Origin: Verrucomicrobiia bacterium
Lineage (GTDB): Bacteria > Verrucomicrobiota > Verrucomicrobiia > Limisphaerales > Pedosphaeraceae
Reading direction: 5' to 3'
NCBI GenBank assembly: GCA_036268055.1
Contig: DATAUW010000001.1
Span: 1-64,000 of the forward strand
Length of the DNA stretch: 64,000 bases
Made by a program: the position numbers and the translations under genes. Positions 32,124 to 42,995 of this stretch are shown here, one piece after another (the first letter of the stretch is position 1; every line of letters begins with the position of its first letter). Under the pieces are notes generated by a model that saw nothing but the letters and a program-made list of their open reading frames with translations, made no database searches and was not told the origin of the DNA.

Positions 32124-35100
32124 TCAAACTTCTCTCGCGCGCATATTTTTCCCAATAAGCGTAAGCACCACCACCATTGCAAAAATCCCCACCAACACAC
32201 CGATGCGCACCACCCACGAAGCCGCGCCCGCCGCCGTTACTTTCAGGCCGATCTTCAAATCCGCCCAGCGATCCACTGCCACCGCGCGTTTGAAAGTCAG
32301 CACGCGCCCCTGCTCAGGAATGCTCGCGCGAATCGCCGCCGGCGTGCTGACCGCCGCGTCCTGTTGCTGAATGATGCGTTGCGCGAGACGCATGAATGCG
32401 CTGTTGTCGTCGGCCGTGTTGCGGTCAATCATGTCCTTCGCCTGCTGCTGCGAGTAAGCCATTTCCTTGCGCCCGCGCAGGTCACGAAAAATTCCACTGG
32501 CGCCACTCGAATCGCCCACCGCCGCCTGCCGCACATTCAAACCCACCAGCGCCTCCTGCAATTTGAGATTATTCAACTGCACGCGCGCGTCCTCGTTGAA
32601 CGCATCGTCTCCCTGGCTCAAACCGTACGCCGATTGAAACGCGCGCCGCGCCTGTTGTGGGTCGCCGTTCTGAAGCATGTTGTTGCCGAATGCCAGCATG
32701 TCTTCAGCCGCTTTGGTTTTCTCGCGTTGCGCATTCGCCTCATTTTTTAAATATGTGTTTGCGTCCAGCGCGGCCACCGCAGCCACGCCGTCACCCGCTT
32801 GCAACTGAAACGAACCGCCCCAATTTTTCAACCGCCATTTGTCATTCAAACAAACGCGCCAGGTGATGTCTTCGAGCGGCAAATCAAATTTCGGCGCCAG
32901 CAAATCCAAGTCGAGCCGATGTCCGCCCGCGGCTCCCGCTTCGTTCGCGTAAAAAATTTCCACCGGAATCGGTTTGTTGTCGCGCGATTGCTGCTCAAGT
33001 GGAATGAGAATTTGGTCTTCCTCGCGCCACGGCCAGACGCCATTTTGGTTCACGAATGCGAACCAAAACTTTGCCCCCTTCGGCAAGGTCAATTTCAGCA
33101 ATCGCTTGTCACCCGGCAGGATTTCCAACCGAGCCTCTGTGAGCATCGCACCGTTGTCAGAAATCACCGAGGTCAGCGTGACGTTATTAACCTGCGCCTG
33201 CAAAAGTTTCGCCGCTTCATGGCGGTCCAGCGTCAACGCCAGTTGAAAACTTGGTTCCACGAGGCGATACGCAAAATTCGCCGAGGCCGATGGCAAGTCC
33301 TGTTGCAACGCGCGCGGGATGCTCTGCCATTCCGCCGGTTGCAACGCCGCCGGCGGCGAATCCACACGCAGTTGCAGCCGCCCACCCGCCTGTAACGTCA
33401 CAAAACCGCGTTGCAAATTAACATCTGCGACTTGCACGCCGCGCAAAGTGGCCTGTGTGGCTTGCGCCTCCAGCACCGTATTATAACTCGCCTGAAGGAA
33501 GTAAGTGCCGATGACGCGGCGTTGCAATTTGATTTCCCACAACTGCAAGCCATTGGTCACCGCGCCGTGTACCGGGAGAAAGTCAGCCACTTGGTCGCCT
33601 TGAAAATGCACGCTCTCCGCATTCTCCGGCAACCGCACGTGAAAAGTTTTCAAACCCGTGTTCTCAATTTGATATTGCAGGTTCGCGATGACTTTGACTT
33701 GCGCCTCGTTGATCGTCGCGTGTTGGAGGCTCGTCACTTGTATCCACGGGTCCACGCGTTCGGTATCGAGCGCCAGGCTCCATTGTGTCTGCAAAATTCG
33801 AAAAGCCAGCACGCCCTTTTGTTGGATGCCGGACTTCTGTGGATCGAGTTGCGTCACACCGTCGCGCGATGCCACGGATAAACGCATCCCCTGTTCCGGC
33901 GCGATGACCAATGTCCCGCGCTGTTTGCTCGCCTCGCGCAAAACCAGTTGCGGAACCGTCCAGCCATTCGTCGCTTTCACGCCCGGCCCGGAAAGGCTCA
34001 GCGCAAATTGCTGCTGCCCCTCCGTCTTCCCGCGCAGATGCAGCGTGATCACGCTGCCCGCGTCGCCCTTCGATTCCGTCCAGTGACTCAACGCCGCGCC
34101 GCTCACCGATTCCACGTCCATCCCGGCGGGCAGCACGAAGCTCAGCCGAAAAATTCCCGCGCGCGTGATGTCCACCGCCGCGTCCACCGCAAGCACGGTG
34201 CGGTCTTCCCCGAGCGAAAGCGTATTTTGCGTTTCCACGCGCACGTCCGGTTCGACGGCCGACGCCTTGAGCGAAACCACCGCGTTCACCTCCGAATAAC
34301 GAAATGCGCGCCGCACGGTCAGTCCGGGAATTTCGTTTTGCAACGCTGCCGCCAGGTTGCCTGGGAAATCTTCGAGGTTGATCGGTGAAAAATTATTCGC
34401 CGCCACCTTATCGAGTTGCACTTCGTTTCCTGTGGCAATGCCGAGCAAGCCAATTTGTCCCGCGGCATTTTCCACCGAAATCAAGCCCACCGATTTCTCC
34501 ACCGGCAACGGCCCGGTCGCAACCTGCGAGCGAATCATCAACGCAAATGGACGCGACTGTGGCGGATTGAGGCTGACGCGCAGTTTGCGCGCGTCGGGAT
34601 CGAATCGCCACACGGACACAAACGAATTTCCCGATTTTGAATTCACAGCGGCATCGCTCACGTCCGTGATGGTCGCGCTGGGCGGCACGTCGAAAATAAG
34701 TTCGCTCAGTTCGCCTTGAGCGGGGCGGATCGCCGCGAAATGAGCGCCTTCAATGACCCCGGCGCTGGGCACGTCGAGCTGGGAAAGTTCCGCGTAGAAA
34801 ACCGGCTTCTCAAGCTTCACATCGCGACTGCGGGGCTGCCAGGAAATCCACGCGTCAGCGGCGGGCGATAGCACAAGCTTCGCGACGGTGTTGCTGCCCG
34901 AAGTCTCCCGCTGAACGGACACGGCTTGTTGCGAACGCACATCCACGTCGAGATTCATCAGCGTGAGTTGCAGTTGATTCACCAGCGCGAATTGCGTGGG
35001 CAAAGTCACCCCGCTCACGCCGTTGCCTTGTATGATGGGCAGTTCATATTGCACTTCCACGTCGAACGCGCCGCTTTCCTGCGCGAGCAATTCTTCACCG

Positions 35101-38100
35101 CGCCGCCCCGCGCTCTGCTCCAGTTTGAACGCGCGATTCGGAAACGTCACGTGCGTGAGAATCGCCGGCTCGAATAACAGCGGCAGACGATCTCCCCTGC
35201 TCGCCTGCCAATGAATCTTCGCGGTCGCGAAGGCAAATTTTTCTTCGACGCGCATTTGTTGTACGATGGATTGCGCCAGCGGCGTTTCAACTGCCTTCAC
35301 ATTCGGCTTGTCCTTGGCTTGCGCTGGCGTTCCCGCAAAGCAAAACAAAATCAATCCACCGATAAGCCACGCGGCGACGACCGGCGCGCCGCCTGAGTCC
35401 GCTAAACCACCCGCAGACCGGCGCGGCAACTTCCACCATGCACGCATGGCTGGAACAAAAATCTGCCACACGAAAAATACCGCGAGCAGCCACAGAAAAA
35501 TCTCCACCCCGTTATCCGAACGCAATGCCGCCCACGCCAGCAAAGTCCAGCCCGCGGCCTCCAGCCACGCGCGCTTTTTGCCCCGCGCATAAATCCACAC
35601 CCCAAGCGCGGCGAACGCGGGCCACGCCTTCGCCATGACCTCCAAGCCGCTATTTTTTTCGGGCACATTACCCACCTCGGCTTGCAATGCGCTCCCCGCC
35701 TGCTGCACCGGCGCGAGAAAAGTAATATCGTATGGAATCGCATGATGCTGCCGTCGGACGAGGTCGTGAAGATAGGCCAGCGCCAACAGCGCCAGGCCAA
35801 ACGCCACGAAACCCAGCAGCCATTTAAAAATAGACTGGGCGCTGAACTTGCCGGCCTCCTCGCGGCCAGTCCAGCGCCACAGTATTGCGGAACTCCCCAC
35901 CAAAAAAAGTAACGCAATCAATAAAAACATCGCCCGCCCGGCATCGGTGCTGGTCAAAAGCCGCATCAGTTGTCCGAAACCCGAGATGTCCGGCACTCCC
36001 CCAATCGGTGTCAATGAACCGCGGCGATACACCAGCCGCTGGCCGTCGTCGGGCGTCAATTTCCATTCCGCCAGCATCACCGGCGCATTCACCGTTGGCG
36101 TCGCGATACTCAGCAATTTCGCGTCCGTGGAACGCGCCGCCAGTTTCAAATCCAAAGTGAGAACGGCATTGGGATCGGCGCGTTGCGGCAGCGGAATCAA
36201 ATTGGATTTTCCATCGAGCACCGGCACGACCGCCGCGCCGTTGACCGATGCCGACCACAACTCCGTGCCTTCGGGCAGCGTGAGCCGGAAGTTTGGGTTG
36301 CCGCGATTTTTCACGAAGTAACGAACGTCGGTCAACACCTGCCCTTCCTTGGAAATGCGCGATGAAATGGTGGCGCGATCAACCACCTGGCTGAGCGAAT
36401 CACCTTGCGCCAGCGGGCTCAATGCGAGTTTTAAATCGAATGGCCGCGACGTGTAGCGATACGCCGCAAGAATCGGCGCGTCAAAAAACAGGCGATATTC
36501 CGCCGGCACTTCGCCCGTTTCCAGCGGCAGCAAACCCGGCGAAACATTGGCGGGCTTCACTTGAAATTGATACGCGCTGATCACAAGCGTGTAACCCTGT
36601 TCGGTCTGCGCATCCACCGGTCGCGCGCCGGTGAATGAAAGCGTCTCGCCCTGCGCCTTGAACGGACGCTCGTAGGTCGCGAGCAGCGTATAAACCCCCG
36701 AGACCGGCGTATGCAGTTGCACCACATAACCGCCGTTCGTCTTCACCCAGTTCCGAATGTCTTTGCCAGTAAACTCGACGTTGAAATATTCATCCGACAA
36801 ATCCACGCGAAACGCCGACACTGGCGCACCCGACACCGCATAATTCATCACACTGCTGCCGTAAGCGACCCCTTCGCCGATTGAAAACAAATGAAACACA
36901 TCCGCCTGCACGGTTTGGGGAAGACGCTCGACGCGCATGGTCGCTTCCCACGTCGGTTCTTCGAGACGAAACGCCTGCTGGATGCCCGCGACTTTGCGCG
37001 GAAAAAATGCCGTGGCGATTTCCGTCAATGCTTGCGTGCGTTCCGGCGTGAGGCGAAATCCCGCGTCCGACGACACGCTCACATGGCCGCGCACGGACTT
37101 GGCATGCGCGACTTCAATGCGTGGAAGCGCCCAATTCGTCGTGTCCAATGCCTGATTGCGCTCCAATCGCAATTCGATCACTTGCCGTCCCGAAACCGGC
37201 GCGCCGTAAACGATGCGCACATCCGAATCGGATTTGTCCGGCGCATCTGTCACAAAATAATCCGTCATGCCCGCGGCGTTGATGCGCGCAATGGCGTAGC
37301 CCTTCGGCACGTTCAACAAAAGTTCGCGCAACGGCGCTTCGCGCACGTCCAGTTCGAGTTCGGCATCAATCGCCAATTCGCTTTCGCCGAGATGATAATC
37401 GAATAATTCGGATACTGTGAGTTCCGGCAGAATTTGGTCCGCCTGAATTCGCAGCGCAAAATCCGCGCCGGAAAAACGGTAGGCAAATCGTTGTTCGCCC
37501 GTGGCGTGCAGATTACGGATGACATCATTCTCGGGAAATTGTTCGGGCGAAATTTGTGAGAGCCCGCTGGCTTGCGCCACTTCCAATCGCACCGCGCCTT
37601 CGTTGACAATGCGAAAATATCCGGCGAAACGCGTGGCCGATTCCGGCCGCAGTTGCATCACGTCCGCCGTCTGCGGAAACGCGCCCAGCGGCGTCTGCGC
37701 CTGCACGGTAAGCGTGAACTGATCTTTTTGCGGCTGGTTCAGTTGCACGGTAAGCAAACGGTCGGTGGAATTCGTGATGGGCTCGACGTTCCACGCCAGC
37801 ACATGCTCGCCCTGCACACGCGTCACTTCGCCGTCGCCATGCAACACAAGCGTCGCTCGATTCAACTCGCCTTGCATGACCTTGAAATCCATCACCGCGT
37901 CTTGCCGCATCAAACCGGGGCTCACGCTGATTTGCGAAATCATTTCCGCGGCGTAAAAAAGTTTGCCCTCAACTTCCGTCCGCGCTTCCTTCCACGAAAG
38001 TTTTACGTTCCCATCGCTCGGCAGAAAGCTCATGAAATCATTGCCACGGCGTTCCGGCAGCGCCGCGCCGGGAAATTGAAATTGCGTATCTGCGGCGAGT

Positions 38101-38519
38101 CCTTGCAACACAACCGGCAGCAATGTTCCGGGCGCGATATGAAAATCCACGCTGTTGCCATTGTCATCATGCATGACTGCTGCGGCGAATTTGATTTGAA
38201 ACGGAAATTCTCCCTTGCGATCAAAGTCCAGCGCGAATCCATTTTGTTCAACGCGCACTCGCCATTTCGGATTGGTCGGAACATCCATCAACGCGACCGT
38301 CCCTTTCAACAAATCAAGCGAACCCGCATTCTCCACATGCGCAATCGCATTCAGCGTGAACACGGCGCGGTCGTCGCGCAAATCACCCGTGAGTTTGAAA
38401 TCGTGCAACGTCACCGGCGGCGGCGCGTAAGCTTCCGCCCGCGCGCCATTGGGTAATGTTGCTGTCAAAAACGCCAGCATGGTTGCGATTCGCAGACAGA
38501 GTACGGGTGCAAGTTTCAT
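32124..38519 (-). CDS. Giant membrane protein with duplicated ectodomain (2131 aa)
   Basis: Unrecognised family. Signal peptide (MLAFLTATLPNGARA, about residues 13-28). Ectodomain A (30-855), six predicted membrane helices at about 863-885, 894-915, 967-981, 984-999, 1004-1021 and 1046-1063, ectodomain B (1070-2095) and a final helix near 2102-2125. The halves share modules: ELNRATLVLHGDGEVTRV (about 213) parallels ELSELIFDVPPSATITDV (about 1268), and the KEGQVLTDVRYF...LTLPEGTELW segment (about 716-760) parallels DNGAMLTEARLE...LTLPKGAKFW (about 1785-1830). The TPR-like stretch near 1965-2010 may bind partners. Third gene of the sigma/VWA operon, 19 nt downstream; presumably a surface or periplasmic partner of the chimera, role unknown. 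Confidence 0.8.
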   Translation of the reverse strand: MKLAPVLCLRIATMLAFLTATLPNGARAEAYAPPPVTLHDFKLTGDLRDDRAVFTLNAIAHVENAGSLDLLKGTVALMDVPTNPKWRVRVEQNGFALDFDRKGEFPFQIKFAAAVMHDDNGNSVDFHIAPGTLLPVVLQGLAADTQFQFPGAALPERRGNDFMSFLPSDGNVKLSWKEARTEVEGKLFYAAEMISQISVSPGLMRQDAVMDFKVMQGELNRATLVLHGDGEVTRVQGEHVLAWNVEPITNSTDRLLTVQLNQPQKDQFTLTVQAQTPLGAFPQTADVMQLRPESATRFAGYFRIVNEGAVRLEVAQASGLSQISPEQFPENDVIRNLHATGEQRFAYRFSGADFALRIQADQILPELTVSELFDYHLGESELAIDAELELDVREAPLRELLLNVPKGYAIARINAAGMTDYFVTDAPDKSDSDVRIVYGAPVSGRQVIELRLERNQALDTTNWALPRIEVAHAKSVRGHVSVSSDAGFRLTPERTQALTEIATAFFPRKVAGIQQAFRLEEPTWEATMRVERLPQTVQADVFHLFSIGEGVAYGSSVMNYAVSGAPVSAFRVDLSDEYFNVEFTGKDIRNWVKTNGGYVVQLHTPVSGVYTLLATYERPFKAQGETLSFTGARPVDAQTEQGYTLVISAYQFQVKPANVSPGLLPLETGEVPAEYRLFFDAPILAAYRYTSRPFDLKLALSPLAQGDSLSQVVDRATISSRISKEGQVLTDVRYFVKNRGNPNFRLTLPEGTELWSASVNGAAVVPVLDGKSNLIPLPQRADPNAVLTLDLKLAARSTDAKLLSIATPTVNAPVMLAEWKLTPDDGQRLVYRRGSLTPIGGVPDISGFGQLMRLLTSTDAGRAMFLLIALLFLVGSSAILWRWTGREEAGKFSAQSIFKWLLGFVAFGLALLALAYLHDLVRRQHHAIPYDITFLAPVQQAGSALQAEVGNVPEKNSGLEVMAKAWPAFAALGVWIYARGKKRAWLEAAGWTLLAWAALRSDNGVEIFLWLLAVFFVWQIFVPAMRAWWKLPRRSAGGLADSGGAPVVAAWLIGGLILFCFAGTPAQAKDKPNVKAVETPLAQSIVQQMRVEEKFAFATAKIHWQASRGDRLPLLFEPAILTHVTFPNRAFKLEQSAGRRGEELLAQESGAFDVEVQYELPIIQGNGVSGVTLPTQFALVNQLQLTLMNLDVDVRSQQAVSVQRETSGSNTVAKLVLSPAADAWISWQPRSRDVKLEKPVFYAELSQLDVPSAGVIEGAHFAAIRPAQGELSELIFDVPPSATITDVSDAAVNSKSGNSFVSVWRFDPDARKLRVSLNPPQSRPFALMIRSQVATGPLPVEKSVGLISVENAAGQIGLLGIATGNEVQLDKVAANNFSPINLEDFPGNLAAALQNEIPGLTVRRAFRYSEVNAVVSLKASAVEPDVRVETQNTLSLGEDRTVLAVDAAVDITRAGIFRLSFVLPAGMDVESVSGAALSHWTESKGDAGSVITLHLRGKTEGQQQFALSLSGPGVKATNGWTVPQLVLREASKQRGTLVIAPEQGMRLSVASRDGVTQLDPQKSGIQQKGVLAFRILQTQWSLALDTERVDPWIQVTSLQHATINEAQVKVIANLQYQIENTGLKTFHVRLPENAESVHFQGDQVADFLPVHGAVTNGLQLWEIKLQRRVIGTYFLQASYNTVLEAQATQATLRGVQVADVNLQRGFVTLQAGGRLQLRVDSPPAALQPAEWQSIPRALQQDLPSASANFAYRLVEPSFQLALTLDRHEAAKLLQAQVNNVTLTSVISDNGAMLTEARLEILPGDKRLLKLTLPKGAKFWFAFVNQNGVWPWREEDQILIPLEQQSRDNKPIPVEIFYANEAGAAGGHRLDLDLLAPKFDLPLEDITWRVCLNDKWRLKNWGGSFQLQAGDGVAAVAALDANTYLKNEANAQREKTKAAEDMLAFGNNMLQNGDPQQARRAFQSAYGLSQGDDAFNEDARVQLNNLKLQEALVGLNVRQAAVGDSSGASGIFRDLRGRKEMAYSQQQAKDMIDRNTADDNSAFMRLAQRIIQQQDAAVSTPAAIRASIPEQGRVLTFKRAVAVDRWADLKIGLKVTAAGAASWVVRIGVLVGIFAMVVVLTLIGKNMRAREV

Positions 38520-38538: not shown

Positions 38539-41500
38539 TTATTTTCCCGAAATGGACTTCGCCTCGCGGATCATCTCTTCCAATTTTGCCGGGCGCGCAT
38601 CGGCGCCATAAGTCTGCGGCACGCCCGCGAGATAACGGAGTAATTGATCGGGCGTCACTTCAGCCGCGTAAGGACTGTTCGCAAGCCATTCGGCGAATTC
38701 CCCGGCGCTGGCCGCAAGTCGCATCGCGGGACTCGCCTGGTCGAGCGCCACGCCGCTGCCGTTGTAAGGAACTTCCCACGCGTGCTCGCGATATTCGGAA
38801 GTCCCCGGCACGCGGAAACGCACGTGCACGGTGGCGATGGCGCCTTCGCCGCTCGCATCGGTTTCCACGACGTAAAGCGCGTTGCCCGATTCCGCCGCGC
38901 CGATTTCCGCCGCATCCACGGAGTTATCGCGGAACTGTTGCTTGGTAAGTTGATGCTTGGCGTAACCGATCTGGCGATACGCCTTCACGCGTTTGGGATT
39001 AAACTCAACTTGCACTTTCACATCGGCGGCGGCGATGTTCAGCGCACCCGCAAGCTGTCCGGCAAAATCACTCGCCGCTTCGGCGGGCGTGTTGAGAAAA
39101 CCGTAACGCCCGTCGCCATTGCGCGAAAGCGCTTCGAGCAAATCGTCATTGTAACCTTCCCAGCCAATGCCAAAACAATCGAGCGCGATGCCTTGCTTGC
39201 GATTCGCTTCGACTTTTTGGCGAAGCGTAGTCGCGTCCACATTGCCAAGATTCGCCGCGCCATCGGTGAGCAGCACCACGCGATTGACACCGTCCGCGAG
39301 GTAATGACGGCGCGCCGTTTCGTAAGCGAGTCTCATCGCGTCCTCGAGATTCGTGCCGCCTTGCGGAGTGAGGCCGCTGACTTTCTCGAACACCGCGCCC
39401 GCCTGATCGCCCGGCACGCCATCCACCCAAAGCCGCGGCGTGCGCGCAAAAGTCACGATGCTCAATTTGTCCTGCGGTTGAAGCTGCGTCGCCAGCACGC
39501 GCAAGGCTTCGTGAATGATCTGCACGCGATCCGCGCGCTCCATCGAACCGGAATTATCCAGCAGCAAAACAATATTCAACGCCCGCCCCGGCGGACGCCC
39601 CGCAGCCGCCGTCTTCACCGAGAAGCGGAGCAAATCGCGATTGTGTGCGAACGGATCATGCGCACGCTCCCAGGCAAAACCCAGTGGCGCACCCGGCGCA
39701 GGATCGGGATCGCGATAATCGAACGCATTAATAAATTCCTCGCTGCGGATGGATGCCGCATCCGGCATCACGCCCTTATCCAAACTCGCTTCGGCAAGTT
39801 TGAACGAGACATCCGCCACGTTGAGCGAGAAAGTTGAAAAAGCATTTTCGCGCGTGAGAATTTCCGGCATAGGAATAGGAAGCTGCACTGCGGATTTGGC
39901 GAGCGGCAGATCTTTCTGTTGATTGTCCAATTGTTTTTTCAACACAGCCAACTCTTGCATAGTGCGCGCCACCTTTAAGTCCTGTTCAGCCAGTTGAACT
40001 TCGATTTGCTTGACCTTTCCAAAATCAGCGTTGCTGCGTTGTTCGGTCTTAAAATCCCTTACCGCAACGGCAAGTGCATTTGCAATGTTGGCTGCCTCAA
40101 CGGGGTTGTCACTCTTAACGCCAATATCCACTAAACTGGAGTTTTTTTCCGGGCGGACATCCAGGCTCTTTTTCAACCGAGCGCGCGCCTCGGATTCAGT
40201 CAACGGCGCGCCTCCCTTATCGGCCCATACTTTTTTCAAATCCAGCTTTTCAATGACCTTATCAAGCACAGCTTTCGATTGAATAGTCTCAACCTCGCTT
40301 TGCACAAAATGAGGATCGTACGTCTGCGCAGTTGCATTTCCTGAAATTCCACTGATATCCGAAACATCATGGTCAGATTTAATCCGCGCGCGCCTTTCAA
40401 CTGTGCCAGTGAAAAATCCAGTGACTTTTTCAGACAGACTTCGATTGGATGTTGAATTGGTCTCCGCCCGCTCGACGATTTCGACCATTGTGGTATTGGG
40501 CATCTTTGTTTCGACGTTTTCCTGCAAAACTTTCAGTTTCGTCAGATCGCGAGTCGTGGTTAATGATTTTAGCTCTTCCTGTTTTTCCTGGTACGCCAGC
40601 ATTAGGTTGGACGCGTCGGAATCAGACTGCGCAACCGCCGATTGCGATTGCATCGCCTTGTTTATCCAGTTGGGGGTCGAAGCGCCACTCATGGGAACCT
40701 CATCGCGAGTTGCGGGATCGTAACTGAAAGTGACGTTATCCGAAAGTGTGGCCGAATTTAGAGTTGATAAATTGGAACTAGTGTCCTTTGTCCATGCCTT
40801 ATCGACGTTTTTTAATCTGTCGGAATTTTTCAATTCATAAGCGCGCGCGTCATTGGCCATTTTCCGCTGTCGAAAGGCTTGCAGGTCATTATCTATTTTA
40901 TCGCTTTGAAATGAAGGTGTGCGTTCAATCTGACTAGCAACAGTCTGGTCGTTCTTGAAAGCGCCGATGTCGGCAATTCCACCGCCACCGCCACCAGCCC
41001 CTAAAACACCAGGATTATTACCGGCGAGTTTAGCGTACTGCTGAACATTATTGGCGGTATGAGCATTTGAGGCTGGCAAGTTGACATACCCAACGATTCC
41101 TAAATTGTATTCATTACTGTTATCGCCTCCGCCTCCGCCGCCAAAGCCTTGAATAGAACCGCCCACCCCGACTTGGACCTTGTCCTGGCTTCCTGAAACC
41201 GTATCCGCCAACTGAACCGGCGGAGTGATAGCATTCAAATTTCCGTTAGCGGCAACCACGCCTCCCGTCGGCGCGGCAGGTGCGGTCGGCAATCCAAAAG
41301 CAGTTTTTTCGTTTTCGACCAAAGCCGGCGCGGCCATCGGCGCGGGCTCAGATGCTGGCAAAACAATCTCGGATTTTCCGGCGGTGGCTGATTTGTCAGC
41401 CGGTTGCACAAAAATTGCAAAAGGTGAGCCTGCTTGTGGAGGAGTCAAAGGTGTAGTAGATCTGGCAGACCCGGTATTAAACGTCCCCTCTGATTTCAAT

Positions 41501-42273
41501 CCACGCGATTGCGGTTGCAGGCTATCCATTTCCTGTGGTGTCTTCGTTTGAACCAACTGCATTTCTCCCACTGGCACTGTCGCCCCATTCGCATAAATCC
41601 GAACACTTCCACTGGCATCCGCGCTGGATGGCAGATTCACGCCAAGCAATTTCTTTGCCTCACGGCGATCCACTTCCGCGGAAGCCGATTCGCCGACCTT
41701 GCCGATCAAATATCTTTCACCCGCGACCGGTGGAAGTTTTCCCCCGGGAAGATACGGTTTCAAATCTTTGAATGTAGGTGCATCCTCGGCGCCTTTTTTG
41801 TTGTCACCCGCCCACATTTCCTTCGCCATATCCAATTCCCGCAGATTGGAAAGCGTGTTAATCCGCATCGCTTTCGATTTCGACTTTGCGAGCGCGGGCA
41901 AAAACAATCCCGACAGAGCAATAAATATGACCGCGCACGCCGCCAGCAACATCCAATTAATCTTTTGCGGCGCGGACGGCTCCGCGAATTCCTTCGGCAC
42001 AATCGTCTTGAACTGCGCGAGCAATTTTTCGCGGCGATCAGCGGAAAGTTTTAACGGCGCAGCCGGCGCGGCTTCGGCCTGTGCGGCGCGACTGGCAGCT
42101 TCAACCAATTTGATCGTGGGCTTGAGACGGTCGTAAAGTTTCGCCAACTCGGCATTCTCCTCAAGTTCCTGGCGCAACGCGGCGGCCTTGTGCGCGGGCA
42201 ATTCGCCGAGCAGATACGCGGTCAGGCGCGCTTCGAATTCCGCGAGTTGTTCGGGTGGAAGTTCGGGGTTCAC
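38539..42273 (-). CDS. Anti-sigma/pseudopilin/Wzz-like/von Willebrand chimera (1244 aa)
   Basis: GTG start overlapping the sigma stop. Modules in order: (1) anti-sigma-like N-terminus, residues 1-100 (LTAYLLGELPAHKAAALRQE; no zinc ligands); (2) transmembrane helix about 107-127; (3) a pseudopilin-like segment, 122-205 (LFLPALAKSKSKAMR, NLRELDMAKEMWAGD, PTFKDLKPYL), as in verrucomicrobial type II-like pilins but without a prepilin cleavage site; (4) a low-complexity Gly/Asn/Pro region to about 560; (5) a Wzz-like polysaccharide-chain-length domain about 624-750 (ARIKSDHDVSDISG, YDPHFVQSEVETIQSKAVLD, SDNPVEAANIANALAV), then a coiled coil; (6) a YfbK-type pre-domain 808-880, a VWA domain with MIDAS D906-S908-S910 (DNSGSM), GGTNL and LTDGAANLG; (7) a C-terminal DUF3520-like domain to 1240. 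Function unknown; likely membrane-tethered regulator. Confidence 0.8.
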   Translation of the reverse strand: MNPELPPEQLAEFEARLTAYLLGELPAHKAAALRQELEENAELAKLYDRLKPTIKLVEAASRAAQAEAAPAAPLKLSADRREKLLAQFKTIVPKEFAEPSAPQKINWMLLAACAVIFIALSGLFLPALAKSKSKAMRINTLSNLRELDMAKEMWAGDNKKGAEDAPTFKDLKPYLPGGKLPPVAGERYLIGKVGESASAEVDRREAKKLLGVNLPSSADASGSVRIYANGATVPVGEMQLVQTKTPQEMDSLQPQSRGLKSEGTFNTGSARSTTPLTPPQAGSPFAIFVQPADKSATAGKSEIVLPASEPAPMAAPALVENEKTAFGLPTAPAAPTGGVVAANGNLNAITPPVQLADTVSGSQDKVQVGVGGSIQGFGGGGGGDNSNEYNLGIVGYVNLPASNAHTANNVQQYAKLAGNNPGVLGAGGGGGGIADIGAFKNDQTVASQIERTPSFQSDKIDNDLQAFRQRKMANDARAYELKNSDRLKNVDKAWTKDTSSNLSTLNSATLSDNVTFSYDPATRDEVPMSGASTPNWINKAMQSQSAVAQSDSDASNLMLAYQEKQEELKSLTTTRDLTKLKVLQENVETKMPNTTMVEIVERAETNSTSNRSLSEKVTGFFTGTVERRARIKSDHDVSDISGISGNATAQTYDPHFVQSEVETIQSKAVLDKVIEKLDLKKVWADKGGAPLTESEARARLKKSLDVRPEKNSSLVDIGVKSDNPVEAANIANALAVAVRDFKTEQRSNADFGKVKQIEVQLAEQDLKVARTMQELAVLKKQLDNQQKDLPLAKSAVQLPIPMPEILTRENAFSTFSLNVADVSFKLAEASLDKGVMPDAASIRSEEFINAFDYRDPDPAPGAPLGFAWERAHDPFAHNRDLLRFSVKTAAAGRPPGRALNIVLLLDNSGSMERADRVQIIHEALRVLATQLQPQDKLSIVTFARTPRLWVDGVPGDQAGAVFEKVSGLTPQGGTNLEDAMRLAYETARRHYLADGVNRVVLLTDGAANLGNVDATTLRQKVEANRKQGIALDCFGIGWEGYNDDLLEALSRNGDGRYGFLNTPAEAASDFAGQLAGALNIAAADVKVQVEFNPKRVKAYRQIGYAKHQLTKQQFRDNSVDAAEIGAAESGNALYVVETDASGEGAIATVHVRFRVPGTSEYREHAWEVPYNGSGVALDQASPAMRLAASAGEFAEWLANSPYAAEVTPDQLLRYLAGVPQTYGADARPAKLEEMIREAKSISGK

Positions 42274-42824
42274 GGCACGACTCCATTTCTCGCCAGTTCA
42301 TCGGCGATTTCCTTGAGCGCGTGATGCAGCAGGTAACCGACGTGCCCGACTTTCAATCCCGTGCGCGCGCTGATTTCCTTATACGACATGTCCTCGGTGA
42401 ACTTGAGCCGGATCAATTCGCGGCTGCGCTCGTCGAGAGTTTCCAGACTGAGTTGCACCAGACCCACGCCTTCGAGCCGCGAAATCAATTCATCGGGCAG
42501 CGGCTGGGAATCGGCGGTATCGAGTGAAGGCGGAGCGTCAATTTCGGTAAGGCTGTCAAACGAAATGGTTTTTGCGGATTGACGGCGATGATTGAGGGAC
42601 TGGTTATGCACCGTGCGATAAAGCCACTTGCGCGGCTCGCGAACTTCTTTGAACTGGGCGTGCAATTTCATGAAAGCATCCTGGACAGTGTCCTCGGCAA
42701 GGTTGCGATCACCGAGCAAACGGAGGGCATACGCGAGCAGCGGTGATTCGAGGTTGGCGAAAAGCTCCTCGATCGTTTCCCCTGCCGGCGGCTCGCTGAC
42801 TTCTTTTGCTCGCATTACGGCCAT
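42270..42824 (-). CDS. ECF-family RNA polymerase sigma factor
   Basis: 184 aa. Region 2 (about residues 20-90: LLAYALRLLGDRNLAEDTVQDAFMKL, WLYRTVHNQSLNHRR) and region 4 (about 120-180: LSLETLDERSRELIRLKFTEDMSYKEISARTGLKVGHVGYLLHHALKEI) are complete, with the short linker of ECF sigmas. First gene of the operon; its TGA overlaps the GTG start of the chimera gene, so expression of sigma and its probable anti-sigma is coupled. Predicted to direct RNA polymerase to an envelope-stress or surface regulon. Confidence 0.9.
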   Translation of the reverse strand: MAVMRAKEVSEPPAGETIEELFANLESPLLAYALRLLGDRNLAEDTVQDAFMKLHAQFKEVREPRKWLYRTVHNQSLNHRRQSAKTISFDSLTEIDAPPSLDTADSQPLPDELISRLEGVGLVQLSLETLDERSRELIRLKFTEDMSYKEISARTGLKVGHVGYLLHHALKEIADELARNGVVP

Positions 42825-42995
42825 GCTCGGTTCGTCCCGCGCGATTCGTGGCGTTCATCCGCCGCCAACCCTCGCGAGACGGTCCTGTCTCACTAGGTAT
42901 GACACACCACGAGGAAGTTTATTAGACGAAAGATTAGGGAAACGGCCAAGGGCACGATTCCGCTATTGTTCGCCCCTGATTTAGAAGAAATTCGG

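Follow-up and report, generated by a model that had tools for sequence, protein, structure and literature searches.

What does a bacterium gain from a single protein that joins an anti-sigma-like N-terminus to pieces of pilins, of the polysaccharide co-polymerase (PCP) Wzz and of YfbK-type VWA proteins? Such a mosaic, 1244 amino acids (aa) long, is encoded on the reverse strand of the first 64,000 nucleotides (nt) of contig DATAUW010000001.1 (GenBank assembly GCA_036268055.1; Verrucomicrobiia, Pedosphaeraceae), a stretch that we call the window. Our preferred reading, to which we give a probability of roughly 0.45, is that the mosaic protein is a membrane-bound anti-sigma factor of an extracytoplasmic function (ECF) sigma factor and reads the state of the envelope by self-mimicry, i.e. 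through modules that resemble the cell's own envelope machines. The sequence supports linkage to a sigma gene, a single membrane helix, mimic modules predicted on the far side of the membrane, an invariant metal ion-dependent adhesion site (MIDAS) and a conserved promoter of the operon itself.

Layout of the mosaic protein

An earlier description made from the letters alone (the sequence-only reading) called the open reading frame (ORF) a chimera of anti-sigma-like, pilin, Wzz and VWA parts. Matches in Pfam, NCBIfam, the PDB and the same genome show the chimera to be real; the three modules named there are genuine, given the Pfam, NCBIfam, own-genome and profile matches, and own-genome, profile, PDB and fold matches exclude low-complexity lookalikes of pilin and Wzz. 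All of the following features lie on the reverse strand.

38539..42273: mosaic anti-sigma/VWA protein, 1244 aa; ORF confirmed
42270..42824: ECF sigma factor, 184 aa; NCBIfam sigma70-ECF (2e-22), Pfam Sigma70_r2 and r4_2
41974..42273: anti-sigma-like cytoplasmic domain, residues 1-100; NF052375, family motif, sigma-gene overlap
41659..41967: pilin-derived segment, residues 103-205; membrane helix, alpha1 continuation and pilin body
40645..41658: disordered hypervariable stretch rich in Gly, Pro and Ala, residues 206-543
40450..40644: C-terminal half of the Wzz module, residues 544-608; native site before the second transmembrane helix (TM2)
40408..40449: linker between the permuted Wzz halves, residues 609-622; replaces both PCP membrane helices
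39922..40407: N-terminal half of the Wzz module, residues 623-784; native site after the first transmembrane helix (TM1)
38542..39876: YfbK-type VWA unit (vWF_A, VWA and YfbK_C; Pfam), residues 800-1244

The start of the mosaic ORF overlaps the end of the sigma ORF by 4 nt, and the only predicted transmembrane helix (hydrophobic segment 103-126) follows the anti-sigma-like domain. At the C-terminus, Pfam recognizes vWF_A (3e-12, residues 807-883), VWA_2 (5e-16, 901-1005) and YfbK_C (4e-28, 1077-1216), so that the YfbK-type VWA/DUF3520 unit previously placed at residues 895-1240 is confirmed over 807-1216. The VWA domain has a complete MIDAS (D906, S908, S910, T974 and D1004) that is invariant in 43 relatives. 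Known YfbK/DUF3520 VWA proteins possess the same unit of vWF_A, VWA and YfbK_C; in the mosaic protein, however, it forms the C-terminus of a putative anti-sigma factor, which these domains alone do not make.

Conserved ends and an exchangeable middle

The searches covered 146 relatives and 320 genomes of one verrucomicrobial order, and 100 of these genomes encode the same frame. It is also present in Chthoniobacter, the cultured C. flavus Ellin428 among them. The union of domains that had been considered unusual is real, but it is a family trait and not a one-off, and a single-genome oddity was dropped as an explanation because the frame recurs across many genomes. Most relatives come from metagenome-assembled genomes, in which assembly or gene prediction might fuse unrelated genes; the frame and architecture recur in ~100 independent genomes, and the cultured C. 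flavus has them too, which makes the probability of such an artefact negligible.

Judged by comparison of these sequences, the two ends are conserved and the middle is an exchangeable slot: the VWA end is strongly conserved, whereas the middles average 10% column identity and, in intact members, are between ~280 and 1180 aa long. More distant relatives in Planctomycetota, Lentisphaerae and Poribacteria align over the VWA part alone. Wzz occupies the middle at 19-20 loci; other middles contain the Pfam modules Poly_export/Wza (7e-13), Secretin_N (3e-12), FliL (1e-9) and LysM (2e-13), and some contain PATR autotransporter repeats (to 2e-15) or pilin bodies. That of C. flavus includes 450 residues of an Amuc_1098-type type IV pilus secretin (8e-91). 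When 37 middles were scanned against NCBIfam (E up to 1e-3), all 18 families that matched belonged to the envelope or to secretion. A TPR match in some middles is the sole unspecific one. Of 93 middles, 38 have the secretin signature LGDxPxxGxxF, and no shuffled one has it; of five 'control' ORFs with the signature, four seem to be paralogues within the family or family ORFs that have been split.

The spread of lengths and the low column identity are compatible with neutral capture, the main rival of self-mimicry: a disordered periplasmic linker tolerates in-frame insertions, and fragments of exported families pile up in it by ectopic recombination, persisting only if they are exportable and playing no role in sensing. 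Capture of this kind would not by itself explain why the pieces are whole domains or fold-complete permutants instead of random fragments, or why the Wzz module is 53% identical within one genus, near the anti-sigma domain (59%), whereas the disordered stretch is 25% identical. We regard neutral capture as unlikely.

Several smaller observations concern the family. A peptide, LPxPxFxGTPxDLP, recurs in the disordered stretch of the middles of L181, L176, L190, L188, L177, L114, L060 and L057, and further short peptides (DPxTGLP, VGYVN and WGDYDxD) recur in other middles, where shuffling predicts hardly any. The VWA proteins encoded at loci L076-L089 are divergent (their VWA parts are 25-37% identical), and several have an anti-sigma-like N-terminus and the motif RYGL. 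A proposal that RYGL is a captured snippet was dropped; because it is found also in this divergent anti-sigma/VWA subfamily, it is probably a family motif. In genome G058 a FliL-like stretch (G058:C15:15525-15794) lies directly behind the VWA match. Possible second family members are a 1625-aa frame with the secretin piece in C. flavus (G320:C52:171955-172623) and, in G041, a 669-aa anti-sigma-type ORF (L050 1-2007) that adjoins the member at L050.

A circularly permuted Wzz module

Residues 624-750 had been assigned to the periplasmic region of Wzz. The homology holds; the extent does not, as the module spans residues 544-784 and is circularly permuted. Pfam Wzz stays below threshold on the mosaic protein (0.09); NCBIfam EpsF matches residues 644-778 (4e-8), the 723-aa PCP of the Wzz/BY-kinase type encoded by the same genome matches residues 623-784 (2e-29), a profile of PCPs from the same order matches the N-part at 3e-43 and the C-part at 2e-9 (residues 546-604), and Wzc in the PDB is matched by profile at 4e-6. 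A native PCP consists, in order, of TM1, the N-half, a helical arm, the C-half and TM2. This order is not kept in the mosaic protein: the C-half stands ahead of the N-half, with no transmembrane helix inside the module. The C-half comes first in all 16 fusions that show both halves (15 by profile, one by eye), and the linker between them, with a TLWxRIRG-like core conserved across modules, stands in for both membrane helices and the cytoplasmic part.

The model of the window's Wzz module (mean predicted local distance difference test score 80) likewise points to Wzc, KpsE and Wzz: Foldseek places KpsE, Wzc and Wzz at the top (E ~6e-3, probability near 1), and VIA-align superimposes the module on Wzc (7nhs) with Z 12.0 and a root-mean-square deviation of 2.3 over 104 residues; since proteins with long helices also reach Z ~10 in VIA-align, the match of the alpha/beta base is the telling part. 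The model thus suggests that the PCP base fold is kept in spite of the permutation. The module shares with the PCPs Wzz, Wzc and EpsF the base domain, the start of the helical arms and the core YDPYF...EAAxIAN; it differs from them in being permuted, in having no kinase, in the loss of most of the helical arm and of both membrane helices, and in its fusion to a putative anti-sigma factor. It would represent a natural circular permutation of Wzz, retained by evolution in many families. Indeed, the permuted layout and its linker are present across ~11 families, a persistence that argues against neutral capture.

A pilin-derived membrane anchor

The sequence-only reading saw the body of a pseudopilin, without a prepilin site, at residues 122-205. 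The body and the missing site are confirmed, but the restriction to the body is not, because the match takes in the membrane helix as well. Residues ~109-160 match ~50 pseudopilin-like ORFs of the same genome, solved pilins in the PDB are matched at 1e-7 by the family profile, and a long helix is predicted at residues 107-157. There is no GFTLIE-type prepilin peptidase site, the residues that precede the helix being PQKINWMLLAACAV. The membrane anchor of the mosaic protein looks like the alpha1 helix of a pilin, and at least 31 of 73 relatives have a similar continuation, of the LPALSKAK type, behind their membrane helix. Pilins, PATR proteins and secretins are abundant donor families, as these ~50 matches in one genome illustrate, and such abundance favours neutral capture. 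The same genome encodes a further pilin-body fusion, with a membrane helix and a coiled coil and without a prepilin leader (L003 in G000:C38, 1519-2208, reverse strand).

Likeness of the modules to machines of the same genome

Wzz, FliL, Wza, Secretin_N and secretin modules were compared with the machines of their own genomes. For every Wzz half, the PCPs of 35 genomes, 35 in all, were ranked by closeness, so that the own PCP would come first by chance once in 35. It ranks first for 12 of 15 C-halves and for 11 of 17 full-length N-halves (p ~1e-16 and ~1e-13, respectively, if the cases were independent, which related genomes are not). For the protein of the window, the own PCP is the best of 35 for the C-half only. 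The own copy is also the closest for the FliL module (59%, next 56%, 145 genomes), the Wza domain (72% versus 63%), the Secretin_N module (61% versus 54%) and the secretin piece of C. flavus (70% versus 57%, among 10 genomes only). By these ranks and identities, slot modules are usually closest to the machine of the same genome.

A single capture of Wzz followed by purely vertical descent is ruled out by a tree built from 18 modules together with 35 PCPs, in which at least six label changes are forced on well-supported branches; in this tree some modules, drawn from several families, are sister to the PCP of their own genome. Given the shared linker, we infer as the simplest history a single permutation, after which the own PCP either overwrote the module repeatedly (gene conversion) or coevolved closely with it.

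Wzz, Wza, secretin-N and FliL are ring-forming domains, and the placement of modules that are unrelated in fold but share this tendency just before the VWA unit might indicate an oligomerization scaffold, in which the slot merely multimerizes the VWA/anti-sigma protein and any ring builder would serve. Ring function alone needs no resemblance to the cell's own machine, however, and the LysM, PATR and pilin modules are no ring builders; we consider a scaffold very improbable.

An anti-sigma-like N-terminus encoded next to a sigma gene

The setting of a sigma/anti-sigma pair, implied by the earlier description of the N-terminus as anti-sigma-like, is well represented in the family, whereas the domain match itself (NF052375) is weak. 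Of 82 loci with sufficient sequence, 73 have a sigma gene immediately before the family gene, and in most of these the two genes overlap by 4 nt as they do in the window. The N-terminal motif LTALLLGEL...LSxxRRxxLL is family-wide, and zf-HC2 is matched at 1e-5 in one relative. Structure comparison of the N-terminus yields weak matches to RslA (E > 6), and a profile search of the PDB gave no anti-sigma match for it. Taken together, the weak NF052375 match and the gene context make it plausible that residues 1-100 are an anti-sigma domain.

A conserved promoter and the predicted regulon

42898..42926, reverse strand: ECF-type promoter TCTAATAA-N14-TGTCATA, ~100 nt upstream of the sigma gene

The pattern TCGTCTAAGAAA-N12-GTGTCGTA, or a close variant, is found upstream of the sigma gene in 69 of 75 loci; TCTAA-17-TGTC is found in 51 of the 75 upstream regions, versus at most 4 in shuffles. 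The sigma operon is predicted on this basis to be autoregulated. The genome has two copies of the full pattern, one preceding the sigma gene and the other preceding the gene of a secreted serpin (411 aa, Pfam 1e-116; locus L328 263-1529), where the site (G000:C30:52937-52965, reverse strand) is 5 nt upstream of the ATG. The serpin is a candidate for a leaderless, sigma-controlled protease inhibitor. Across 42 genomes the strict pattern gives 23 sites (15 in the sigma operon and 8 outside it), versus 3 for the reversed control. Each of the 8 outside sites precedes, by 3-69 nt, an ORF whose first residues resemble a signal peptide (judged by eye), and several would yield leaderless mRNAs. Those in other genomes are at L330, L332, L347, L337, L339, L349 and L340, each just upstream of an exported-looking ORF; six of these seven targets (all except L332) were scanned, and none has a Pfam family or is a serpin. 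Because the strict pattern misses many true sites (none was found in 24 of the 42 genomes), the predicted regulon is a minimum. The idea that the regulon comprises pilus or polysaccharide genes was dropped, there being no promoter match by such genes at this stringency.

The serpin gene bears on the possibility that the slot is a protease bait: a protease attacking the envelope would cut the self-pieces in the slot first, destabilizing the anti-sigma factor and freeing the sigma factor, which would induce an inhibitor. That the genome's only other full promoter match precedes a secreted serpin accords with this scheme, as do the long disordered regions, which are easily cut, and the likeness to own proteins, which is what a bait requires. 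On the other hand, the lone serpin site could be chance, the scanned targets elsewhere include no serpin and no Pfam family, and folded modules are poor cleavage sites. A protease bait seems to us improbable.

Proposed mechanism and comparison with known systems

Under envelope sensing by self-mimicry, the N-terminus would hold the sigma factor, and the periplasmic mimic module (here pilin-like and permuted Wzz) would bind the partners of the real pilin or Wzz, or enter its ring. The occupancy of those partners, in combination with binding of a ligand to the VWA/YfbK unit, would decide whether the protein is cleaved and the sigma factor released. Once released, sigma would boost its own operon, which also encodes an envelope protein of 2131 aa, as well as a small number of exported proteins, here the serpin. 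The gene setting makes plausible the earlier proposal of a sensor that controls the sigma factor, the sensing mechanism being inferred; the added suggestion of monitoring pilus subunits or polysaccharide chains is too narrow, as the slots of relatives hold other envelope pieces and the motif-predicted regulon consists of the operon and a few exported proteins. Because relatives' slots hold secretin, Wza, FliL, LysM, PATR and other pieces, mostly nearest to own copies, general envelope self-mimicry fits better.

Certain observations weigh against self-mimicry. The NF052375 match at the N-terminus (2e-4) scores 21 bits, versus a curated cut-off of 100; the own PCP ranks only 9 of 35 for the N-half of the window's protein; members without a recognizable module are also common; and no promoter match lies near pilus or polysaccharide genes at the stringency used. 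Likeness to the own genome is also expected under neutral capture, a nearest-donor process, because the own genome is the nearest source of DNA.

An extension of self-mimicry, which we offer tentatively, is that the protein is a counterpart of integrated decoys: the slot would be repeatedly refilled or overwritten with parts of the host's envelope machines (concerted evolution), each lineage guarding the machine that matters to it. Plant nucleotide-binding leucine-rich repeat receptors with integrated decoy domains (PMC4246468, PMC10195085) similarly combine a conserved receptor frame with an exchangeable position for copies of the organism's own proteins. The likeness is one of analogy only, with no homology and no known attacker, and recognition is only proposed here.

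RsgI anti-sigma factors carry variable outside modules. In Clostridium thermocellum they constitute one family of membrane-bound anti-sigma factors, several per cell, with different substrates and with sigma freed by proteolysis (PMC12203970; see also PMC4711584). The mosaic family resembles them as a membrane-bound anti-sigma family that would sense diverse inputs; RsgI, however, senses extracellular polysaccharides and controls sigma-I, whereas the mosaic family has an ECF sigma factor and a diderm host, its modules are likenesses of envelope machines of the same cell, and its chain ends in a YfbK-type VWA unit. Control of a surface machine through a membrane sensor that deals with the machine's subunit is familiar from pilus systems, in which PilA contacts PilS directly. 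PilS of Pseudomonas is a membrane sensor governing type IV pilin (PMC6058289). Unlike this histidine kinase, which meets the real pilin, the mosaic sensor itself bears a pilin-derived segment.

In the part of the literature covered, we found no report of an anti-sigma family with slot copies of its own envelope machines or of a permuted Wzz in a regulator, and no description of the mosaic family. If self-mimicry is correct, a piece of a machine pasted into a fixed anti-sigma/VWA frame, and kept similar to the original, would be a new sensor design, in place of a separately evolved receptor for every envelope machine. It would supply candidate ECF inputs for Verrucomicrobiota, in which to our knowledge such inputs are poorly known, and would predict machine by machine what each lineage senses; cultured Chthoniobacter flavus makes the idea testable.

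The downstream gene

32124..38519, reverse strand: third operon gene, 2131-aa membrane or exported protein with six hydrophobic segments

The 2131-aa protein has no match in Pfam or the PDB; 65 of 80 loci encode a homologue of it downstream of the family gene.

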